From Trueperaceae bacterium (GTDB lineage Bacteria > Deinococcota > Deinococci > Deinococcales > Trueperaceae), in assembly GCA_011390735.1 (NCBI GenBank), contig JAABRV010000004.1, positions 1 through 40,685 of the forward strand: DNA of 40,685 nt. Direction: 5' to 3'. Positions 30,625 to 33,206 of this stretch are shown here, piece after piece. Positions within the stretch are counted from its first letter, which is position 1. Every line of letters begins with the position of its first letter. Both the position numbers and the translations under genes were made by a program. The notes under the pieces were generated by a model. That model worked only from the letters and a program-made list of their open reading frames with translations. It had not been told where the DNA came from and did not search any database.

Positions 30625-32148
30625 GTGCCGCGCATCGCCATCGTCGACGTCGGGTCGAACACGGCCAAGCTGATCGCCCTGGAGTACCGCGCGGACCACA
30701 GCTGGCGTCAGCTCGACGAGCTGCGCGCGGTCGTGCGGCTGTCGTCGGGCCTGGACGACGGCGGCCTGCTGCGGCCGCGCCCCTATGCCCGTGGCTTGGC
30801 GGCCCTGCGCACGTTCGCCAGCTACGCCACGGCGGTCGGCGTCGATCACCTGGTCGCGACGGCGACGAGCGCCGTTCGCGATGCGCGCAACGGGCCCGAG
30901 TTCGTGGCGGCGGTCCGCCGGATGGGCATCGACCTGCGGGTGCTGGACGGCATCGAGGAGGCGCGCATCGGCGCCCTGGCCGTGGTCAACGGGCTCGACG
31001 TCCGCGATGCGGTCAGCCTCGACCTGGGCGGCGGCAGCTTCCAGCTGGCCGAGATCGCGCAGCGGCGCTGGCGGCGCGGTGGCAGCTGGCCGCTCGGCGC
31101 GGTGCGTGCCCAGGAGCGCTTCCTGCGGGGCGATCCCCCCAAGGCCAAGTCGGTCCGGGCCCTGCGCGTGGCCGCGAGGGCGGCGGTCGAGGCGTTCATG
31201 GCCGGCGCGCCGCCGCCCGCGACCTTCGTCGGTCTGGGCGGCACCGTGCGCAACCTGGCGAACGTCCACCAGAAGCGCGTCGGCTACCCCCTCGACCTGC
31301 TCCACGGCTATTGCTTGCCCGCCGACGACCTGCGGGCGCTGGCCGACGAACTCGTCGGCCTCGACGCGGCACGGCGGGCCGACGTGCCCGGCCTCAACCG
31401 CGACCGCGTCGACATCATCGTCGCCGGCGCGGTGGTCGTGGCGGAGGTGGTCGCCGCGCTGGGCGTGGACGCGCTGCGGGTGTCCGGCCAGGGCCTGCGC
31501 GAGGGCCTGTTCTACCCGTTCCTGTTGCCCGCGTCCCCGGAGCACCTGCTCGACGACGTGCGCGGCTTCTCCGTGCTCAACCTCATGCGCCAGTACCACG
31601 ACGATCCCGCGCACAACGGCCACGTGCGGGCGCTGGCGCTGGCGCTCTACGACGGCCTGCGGCCGTGGCACCCGTTCGGGGATGCCGAGCGCGAGCTCCT
31701 GGGTCACGCGGCCTGGATCCACGACATCGGCATGGCGGTGGACTACTACCGCCACGAGCACCACGGGCTGGCGTTGACGCTCGGGCGGGCGCTGCCCGGC
31801 TTCAGCCACCGGGAGCAGGCGCTCCTCGCGCTGCTGGTCCGCTACCACCGCAAGGGGAGCCCGGGCGCCGACGGCTTCGGGGCGCTGTTCGAGCCCGGTG
31901 ACGACGACCGCCTGCGGCTGCTGGCCGGCGTCCTGCGGCTCGCCGAGTACCTCGAGCGCGGCAAGGCGCAGCGGGTGACCGGCCTGGAGGTGAGGGCCGA
32001 GGGCGACGCAATCGTCGTCTGGGCACGCTCCGAGGGCGACATCCACGTCGAGGTCGAGGCGGCGAACCTGCGCCGCGACCTGTTGGCGCAGGCGCTCGGC
32101 CGGCCCCTGCGCGTGGTCGGCCGCGACGACGTCGATGGTGCGCCGTGA
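30625..32148 (+). CDS. Ppx/GppA phosphatase family protein with C-terminal HD-like domain
   Basis: IAIVDVGSNTAKLIALEY...HLVATATSAVRDARNGPEFV...VSLDLGGGSFQLAEI...FVGLGGTVRNLA; C-terminal HAAWIHDIGMAVDYYRHEHH. Confidence 0.93.
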   Translation: MPRIAIVDVGSNTAKLIALEYRADHSWRQLDELRAVVRLSSGLDDGGLLRPRPYARGLAALRTFASYATAVGVDHLVATATSAVRDARNGPEFVAAVRRMGIDLRVLDGIEEARIGALAVVNGLDVRDAVSLDLGGGSFQLAEIAQRRWRRGGSWPLGAVRAQERFLRGDPPKAKSVRALRVAARAAVEAFMAGAPPPATFVGLGGTVRNLANVHQKRVGYPLDLLHGYCLPADDLRALADELVGLDAARRADVPGLNRDRVDIIVAGAVVVAEVVAALGVDALRVSGQGLREGLFYPFLLPASPEHLLDDVRGFSVLNLMRQYHDDPAHNGHVRALALALYDGLRPWHPFGDAERELLGHAAWIHDIGMAVDYYRHEHHGLALTLGRALPGFSHREQALLALLVRYHRKGSPGADGFGALFEPGDDDRLRLLAGVLRLAEYLERGKAQRVTGLEVRAEGDAIVVWARSEGDIHVEVEAANLRRDLLAQALGRPLRVVGRDDVDGAP

Positions 32149-32879
32149 GCCGCGGTCCCACGCCCTTCGCGCGCGGCCGGGCGGCGGCCGGGCGCACACA
32201 GCTGCCGGCCCGCGTGCGCGTCAAGGTCTGCGGCGTCACGCGGCCGCAGGACGCCGTCGCCATCGAGGCCGCGGGCGCCGACGCGGTGGGTGTGATCTTC
32301 GCCGCGGGCTCGCGCCGACGGGTGGACGTGGCGCGGGCGGCCGAGGTGCTCGCCCCCCTCGGGCCCTTCGTGGCGCGCGTCGGCGTGTTCGTGTCCCCCA
32401 CGCCGGAGGAGGTCCTGGCGGCGGTGGATGCGTTGCGCCTGCACGCGGTCCAGTTGCACGGCGAGCTCGCCGCCGGGGACGACGCGAGCTGGGCGGCCCT
32501 GCGCGAGCGCGTCGCGCTCATCCGGGCGGTCGCCTGGTCCCCGCAGCTCGACCTCGACGCGTTGGCGAGGTCCGGCGCGGACGCCGTGCTGGTCGACGGT
32601 CCGCGTGCGGGCAGCGGCCGGCCCTTCGATTGGGCGGGTGCCGGCAACCTGCGACGCCTCACGAACTGGGTCCTGGCGGGCGGCCTCGAGCCTGGAAACG
32701 TCGCGCAGGCGATCGCGAGGCTCGCCCCGCCCGCCGTCGACGTGGCGTCGGGCGTGGAGTCGGAACCGGGGATCAAGGACGCCGGCCGCTTGGCCGCGTT
32801 CATGGCCGCCGTCCGCGGCGCCGAGGCGGGGTTCGCTGACGATCCGCCGCACCACGGACCGGCCGGCGGCGCGGCCTGA
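32145..32879 (+). CDS. trpF: Phosphoribosylanthranilate isomerase
   Basis: VRVKVCGVTRPQDAVAIEAAGADAVGVIFAAGSRRRV...LHAVQLHGE...AVDVASGVESEPGIKDAGRLAAFMAAVR. Confidence 0.95.
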   Translation: MSRGPTPFARGRAAAGRTQLPARVRVKVCGVTRPQDAVAIEAAGADAVGVIFAAGSRRRVDVARAAEVLAPLGPFVARVGVFVSPTPEEVLAAVDALRLHAVQLHGELAAGDDASWAALRERVALIRAVAWSPQLDLDALARSGADAVLVDGPRAGSGRPFDWAGAGNLRRLTNWVLAGGLEPGNVAQAIARLAPPAVDVASGVESEPGIKDAGRLAAFMAAVRGAEAGFADDPPHHGPAGGAA

Positions 32880-32903
32880 TCCGCGCCTCACGCGCTTCCT
32901 GCG

Positions 32904-32912
32904 TTGTCCACA
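32904..32912 (+). promoter_or_regulatory. DnaA-box-like TTGTCCACA
   Basis: Matches TTNTCCACA. Confidence 0.6.
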
Positions 32913-32922
32913 GTTTGGCCGA

Positions 32923-32946
32923 GTTCTCCACAGCGATGTGGAGAAC
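32923..32946. promoter_or_regulatory. Inverted pair of DnaA-box-like 9-mers TTCTCCACA / TGTGGAGAA
   Basis: Perfect 10-bp inverted repeat GTTCTCCACA-GCGA-TGTGGAGAAC. Confidence 0.6.
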
Positions 32947-33080
32947 CCGCACGGCGTTGGCGCGAGCCCGCTCACAGACGCCGCAAACCGACCAGACTCG
33001 TCCAGCACGTGTTTTCTCCGCTTCGTCGCGAACGGGCGCCGCCTACCAGAGAGGCACCCGGGTTGTCAAGTACCCACCGG

Positions 33081-33089
33081 TTATCCACA
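33081..33089 (+). promoter_or_regulatory. Perfect consensus DnaA box TTATCCACA
   Basis: Exact match to the canonical R-type 9-mer. Confidence 0.7.
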
Positions 33090-33206
33090 GCCTCGTACGC
33101 GCATGCACGACCCGGAAGGGCCGTCCATGGGCCCCCTCGGGCCGCATCGCGGCCACGGCCTGACGCCCCGACGCGTCGTAGGATGGAGCGCATTCGAGGA
33201 GGCCCC

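Follow-up and report, generated by a model that had tools for sequence, protein, structure and literature searches.

A conserved DnaA-box cluster behind trpF in Trueperaceae, probably a DnaA-control locus apart from oriC

The gap between trpF and a small cupin gene of Trueperaceae (Deinococcota) holds a cluster of four DnaA boxes, and this cluster is a conserved locus. DnaA is the protein that starts chromosome copying, and we consider it somewhat probable (roughly 55%) that the gap serves as a stand-alone chromosomal DnaA-binding control locus, apart from oriC, which would sequester DnaA and/or lower its activity. We infer binding of DnaA to the boxes from their shared consensus, and the presence of DnaA itself from relatives, since no dnaA gene was found in the source assembly. 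That assembly is a MAG of 2,580,265 bp in 262 contigs, 81% complete; as close relatives carry dnaA, its absence here is likely due to incompleteness. The window (the whole stretch of 40,685 nucleotides that was analysed) has the following features in and around the gap, with identities taken among 14 genera:

32145–32879, plus strand: trpF (phosphoribosylanthranilate isomerase; Pfam PRAI 2.8e-39, NCBIfam TrpF models; start codon uncertain)
32880–33206: gap of 327 bp between trpF and the cupin gene, non-coding, with all four DnaA boxes inside
32904–32912, plus strand: DnaA box 1, TTGTCCACA, 85% identity
32924–32932, plus strand: DnaA box 2, TTCTCCACA, 20 bp past box 1, 51% identity
32937–32945, minus strand: DnaA box 3, TTCTCCACA, converging on box 2, 91% identity
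32999–33009, no strand assigned: conserved near-palindrome CGTCCAGCACG, 74% identity, with T-rich DNA after it; the family consensus is CGTCCAGGACG
33040–33045, minus strand: candidate -10 of a putative leftward promoter, TAGGCG after TGG
33042–33050, plus strand: conserved block CCTACCAGA, 61% identity; the putative extended -10, TGG-TAGG, lies in its complement
33063–33069, minus strand: TTGTCAA, which is TTGACAA on the minus strand, putative -35, 11 bp from box 4
33081–33089, plus strand: DnaA box 4, a perfect TTATCCACA, 144 bp from box 3, 98% identity
33207–33515, plus strand: small cupin gene of 102 aa (Pfam Cupin_2), downstream of the cluster

An earlier note on this DNA had reported four DnaA-box-like 9-mers, and all were found exactly where it put them, inside the gap. 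Boxes 2 and 3, with starts 13 bp apart and a 4-bp gap between them, form the inverted repeat TTCTCCACA-gcga-TGTGGAGAA, and the full layout can be written as (+)20(+)13(-)144(+). The note's estimate of less than one chance match of TTNTCCACA in the window also holds: 4 are present, while 100 dinucleotide shuffles gave 0.12 expected and a maximum of 1. Genome-wide counts, here and below, come from pattern searches. The whole source assembly contains four matches of TTNTCCACA, all of them in the trpF-cupin gap; a reversed control pattern likewise has 4 matches in the assembly, so it is the clustering, rather than the total, that is remarkable. Boxes lying close together outside dnaA and oriC, beyond chance, are what characterizes a general non-oriC DnaA-box cluster, and the locus in the gap is of this general kind.

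The shuffles bear directly on one reading that we reject as having a negligible likelihood, namely that the sites arose by chance or belong to a trpF terminator with a hairpin that reads like DnaA boxes by accident. The inverted repeat of boxes 2 and 3, and a spacer palindrome followed by T-rich DNA, are what lends it some appeal, but the scan gave no terminator-like site, and conservation reaches 85% and 98% in boxes 1 and 4, neither of which takes part in a hairpin. It is also contradicted by the copies of the cluster found at sites other than trpF.

The gap interrupts a run of plus-strand genes: obg, yqeK, an LCP-family gene, rsfS, ppx and trpF before it, and the cupin gene, a BatA/VWA gene, unassigned ORFs and rlmH after it. 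No RNA families or tRNAs were found in the gap. TrpF was located in 41 genomes and the DNA behind trpF was scanned for boxes. The cluster is present in all 25 sampled Trueperaceae genomes (source included), 22 times directly after trpF and three times elsewhere. Sister families differ: the cluster lies behind trpF in 4/4 genomes of family f2 and in 1/4 of f5 (genome G040, in the order trpF, cluster, M32-like peptidase, the peptidase recognised by eye), and f3 has boxes behind trpF in 4/4, as boxes only and in a different layout. From the end of trpF to the start of the cluster, the distance is 0–135 bp across the 22 family genomes, f2, f3 and the one f5 genome. No box cluster was found behind trpF in the four genomes checked of family f4 (0/4).

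A marker combining spacer and box, TTGTCAA-N6-13-TTATCCACA, has exactly one match in each of 25 of the 111 Deinococcota genomes, while its control pattern has 0 matches in the 111. It is missing from the other 86, some of which have the cluster with altered motifs (e.g. G020, G006, G007). Every f4 genome searched lacks it, and since f4 shows neither marker nor trpF cluster, the locus appears dispensable in that family, a point against a control function. As a marker on its own, GTCYAGGACGG was rejected: it is not enriched genome-wide over the reversed control, and most of its matches look coding or tRNA.

Loss or replacement of neighbours is seen in several genomes: (i) In G005, G012 and G021, trpF does not adjoin the cluster. 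The relocated cluster is complete in each, lying between a class-II tRNA synthetase and a cupin/carboxyl-transferase pair in G012, and upstream of cupin in G005 and G021. (ii) The cupin is absent beside the cluster in G017, G007 and G014. (iii) Two f5 genomes have neither trpF nor cupin beside the cluster while a similar layout remains; the cluster of G036, 7 kb away from dnaA, has an M32 peptidase on one side and an Era-like GTPase on the other, and that of G028 is flanked by a BTAD regulator and an AI-2E transporter. A third f5 genome, G032, has a partial relocated cluster. Because the locus survives the loss of either neighbour, an operator of a single gene is disfavoured. In several family genomes, an acyl-CoA carboxyl transferase is the next gene after the cupin. 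The earlier note had proposed looking for equivalent clusters in the rest of the genome and for conservation of the boxes in relatives; there are no such clusters in the source assembly, and relatives keep the boxes together with their layout and spacing.

In relatives, about ten boxes (one mismatch allowed) with the same consensus TTATCCACA lie between dnaA and dnaN, and the existence of this separate cluster places oriC elsewhere than the gap. In same-genus genomes, most strict boxes fall in just these two loci, the gap cluster and dnaA-dnaN. The two are arranged differently, as the oriC boxes of Trueperaceae are divergent head-to-tail, pointing apart (−−−/+++), and mostly have no convergent pair.

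A compact box cluster in an assembly without a dnaA locus might itself be taken for a second replication origin, or for the true oriC of the organism. We reject this as very improbable: all sampled family relatives have dnaA, the dnaA-dnaN regions that were read hold rich box clusters, and the gap boxes converge, unlike those of oriC. Nor does the gap contain an unusually AT-rich stretch; its lowest-GC 27-bp stretch has 48% GC, and when the window is cut into equal pieces, 14% of them go as low, although by the same measure oriC of G003 is no AT-richer than the gap. Thus the combination by which an oriC is recognised, an AT-rich unwinding element beside the boxes (judged here by GC content alone) and linkage to dnaA/dnaN, is not found in the gap. 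GC skew, which was sampled for two complete relatives, is too weak to place the origin. The proposal of the earlier note, a DnaA-box regulatory locus rather than an origin, accordingly gains support from the conservation of the cluster, the separate oriC of relatives and the survival of neighbour loss.

The locus lies 7–120 kb from dnaA in seven genomes (G017, G026, G030, G034, G029, G040 and G036), at about 0.6 Mb in G011, and at about 1.9 Mb, or 44% of the genome, in G020. As it is near oriC in most measurable genomes, titration or inactivation of DnaA is weakly favoured over reactivation. The distances in G011 and G020 are unlike what a pure origin-proximal dosage model would give, which counts against a control locus of that kind.

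The general layout consists of a proximal module, a spacer, and then one or two distal plus-strand boxes. Usually the proximal module has two plus-strand boxes and one convergent minus-strand box. In several genera, box 2 is shifted 10 bp to the left, making the convergent spacing 23 instead of 13 bp (22–24 in sister families), i.e. about one helical turn apart, and this change of position among genera is why box 2 reaches an identity of just 51%. Many relatives have a second distal plus-strand box (a fifth box) 20–22 bp past the first, which is absent from the source genome. The spacer from box 3 to box 4 is mostly 142–144 bp; other lengths are 130, 133, 140, 152, 155 and, once, 220 bp, and in most of the altered lengths the difference from 143 bp is close to one helical turn. 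A Rayleigh test on spacer lengths gave p ~0.0005, with genera that are not independent of ancestry, so the periodicity is only suggestive of looping.

Among the 14 genera, column identity is 51–98% in the boxes and 35% in the remaining columns, with the spacer blocks GTCCAGNAC, CCTACCAGA and TTGTCAA at 61–74%. G006 and G007 have the CGTCCAGGACG motif upstream of box 1 as well, and in G016 it precedes a TTGACAAG/TAAGAT promoter-like stretch. A leftward TTGACA lies 9–12 bp from box 4 in 18/21 genomes, usually with TAG 17–18 bp farther on, and this TTGACA-17/18-TAG arrangement looks like a promoter reading toward the convergent pair. A simple sigma-70 consensus scan gave no match in the window, the promoter-like element included, and for this reason we call the leftward promoter a candidate. 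RNAalifold at the locus returns the box inverted repeat plus a 3-bp hairpin, at about -5 kcal/mol (0 for shuffled columns); given this result, no conserved RNA is claimed beyond the box repeat.

The same element invites the reading that the boxes form a DnaA-regulated promoter, controlling either the cupin gene or a non-coding RNA that would be read leftward from the TTGACA inside the spacer, with any effect on replication secondary. The recurrence of that TTGACA and the cupin homologue found behind the cluster in 22/25 family genomes, among them G005, G012 and G021, in which trpF is no longer adjacent, speak for it. We regard it as doubtful. The element points away from the cupin, G017 has the full layout with no cupin, and the boxes and some spacer motifs are retained beyond the family, where the cupin is absent. 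What the leftward element would read into varies as well (trpF antisense, Era, a tRNA synthetase, an AI-2E transporter antisense), and both the missing sigma-70 match and the scarcity of conserved RNA structure past the box repeat weigh on the same side.

The essential boxes of datA in Escherichia coli are co-directional, and datA needs IHF. Compared using E. coli K-12 DNA, datA is like our locus in several respects: both are non-coding, lie outside oriC just behind another transcription unit, and have their DnaA boxes in two groups with a long spacer (162 bp between the central boxes of datA, ~143 bp in the locus); this is a likeness of layout, and no sequence homology is claimed. It is unlike our locus in that the proximal module here has a convergent pair (boxes 1, 2 and 4 are co-directional with a long spacer, box 3 converges), and in its use of IHF, for which the relatives gave only HU-like matches below the cut-off. 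Models for IHF-alpha and Hda scored above cut-off in 0/21 genomes, and each did so in 1/14 control genomes. With no IHF or Hda recognised, the locus is not datA or DARS2 as defined, and for the same reason the share of such a site in controlling DnaA could be larger than in E. coli.

A second comparison is with the DARS1 and DARS2 loci of E. coli, whose three-box cores have one opposing box and a convergent pair 13–14 bp apart. Boxes 2 and 3 of the locus are oriented to each other as boxes I and II are in DARS1/DARS2. The DARS cores can be written as (+)14(-)12(-), and the locus as (+)20(+)13(-); after turning of the strand the orientations agree, while the spacings are 13 and 20 instead of 14 and 12, so the locus falls outside the DARS definition. 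The locus further differs in its extra distal boxes, in the lack of a recognised IHF, and in being usually closer to oriC.

These likenesses are the ground for a DARS-like, reactivating reading, in which the convergent pair would hold two ADP-DnaA head to head, ADP would leave, and the apo-DnaA would rebind ATP, promoting initiation. The convergent pair common to the DARS1/DARS2 cores, within a module of two boxes one way and one opposing, fits it, as do a convergent spacing that keeps to 13 or 22–24 bp, about one helical turn apart, and the scarcity of such pairs in the oriC of most relatives. Indeed, the pair is closer to a reactivating DARS core than to the co-directional essential datA boxes, which is a point against the control locus that we propose. 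Still, we judge the reactivating reading unlikely, as the third box stands 20 bp instead of 12 bp from the next one, a DARS core has nothing that corresponds to the distal box or boxes ~143 bp off, no IHF was recognised, and DARS1 and DARS2 are far from oriC whereas the locus is mostly near it.

Precedents come from E. coli, B. subtilis and Streptomyces, where initiation is restrained by clusters of DnaA boxes that lie outside oriC (PMC5742627, PMC5295017). The DBCs of B. subtilis and the cluster of Streptomyces coelicolor share with the locus their position outside oriC, and they exert their restraint by binding DnaA (PMC5295017, PMC5742627). B. subtilis has six DBCs, the Deinococcota locus is single; as to the oriC-proximal position of B. 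subtilis-type DBCs, the locus lies within 7–120 kb of dnaA in seven relatives and 0.6 and 1.9 Mb from it in two. The layout and spacer motifs of the locus are found in Deinococcota, the sole phylum searched.

As a control locus that titrates or inactivates DnaA, the gap could work as follows. DnaA would assemble on the proximal and distal box groups, ~143 bp apart; the DNA between them would bend or loop so that the groups touch; and the resulting complex would draw DnaA from oriC and/or lower its activity, such that a premature start of replication is avoided. In function the locus would then resemble datA and the B. subtilis DBCs, with a convergent pair like that of the DARS cores. Four or five boxes would make a small sink, which is a further point against this model. 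E. coli datA is regulated by transcription reading into it (PMC10950094), and hence the internal promoter-like element of the locus deserves attention: transcription from the leftward TTGACA element between the groups, or RNA polymerase binding there, may make or break the complex.

DnaA boxes were also seen in another setting. Boxes of the form TGTGGANAAC precede a CRISPR-type repeat at 44 places in 19 Deinococcota genomes, with 0 control matches, and the spacing is almost constant, ~107–110 bp from the leader DnaA-box to the end of the first repeat. In the leaders that were read, TGTGGANAAC is the inner half of convergent TTATCCACA pairs. Such leader boxes occur in G017, G026, G013 and many genomes of f4, a family with a seeming loss of the control locus, yet in which many CRISPR leaders retain the DnaA-box. 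Often a CAGGACGG-like motif, similar to the spacer near-palindrome CGTCCAGCACG, comes just before the leader repeat. In the open-licence literature searched, we found no paper combining 'DnaA box' and 'CRISPR leader'. DnaA may be linked to the transcription or adaptation of CRISPR, or another protein may recognise the convergent pair; the main conclusion on the locus does not need this finding. More speculatively, and with quite low probability in our estimate, Deinococcota may have a type of DnaA-activity switch independent of IHF and Hda, consisting of a bipartite locus with a promoter in the loop and the combination of a convergent DnaA-box pair with CAGGACGG that CRISPR leaders also use. 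Replication timing, and also CRISPR transcription or spacer uptake, could then be gated by the state of DnaA.

No published description of the locus was found in the open-licence literature searched. DnaA control is poorly known outside E. coli and B. subtilis, and this small, deeply conserved locus is a ready target for its study in Deinococcota, where no IHF or Hda is recognised.
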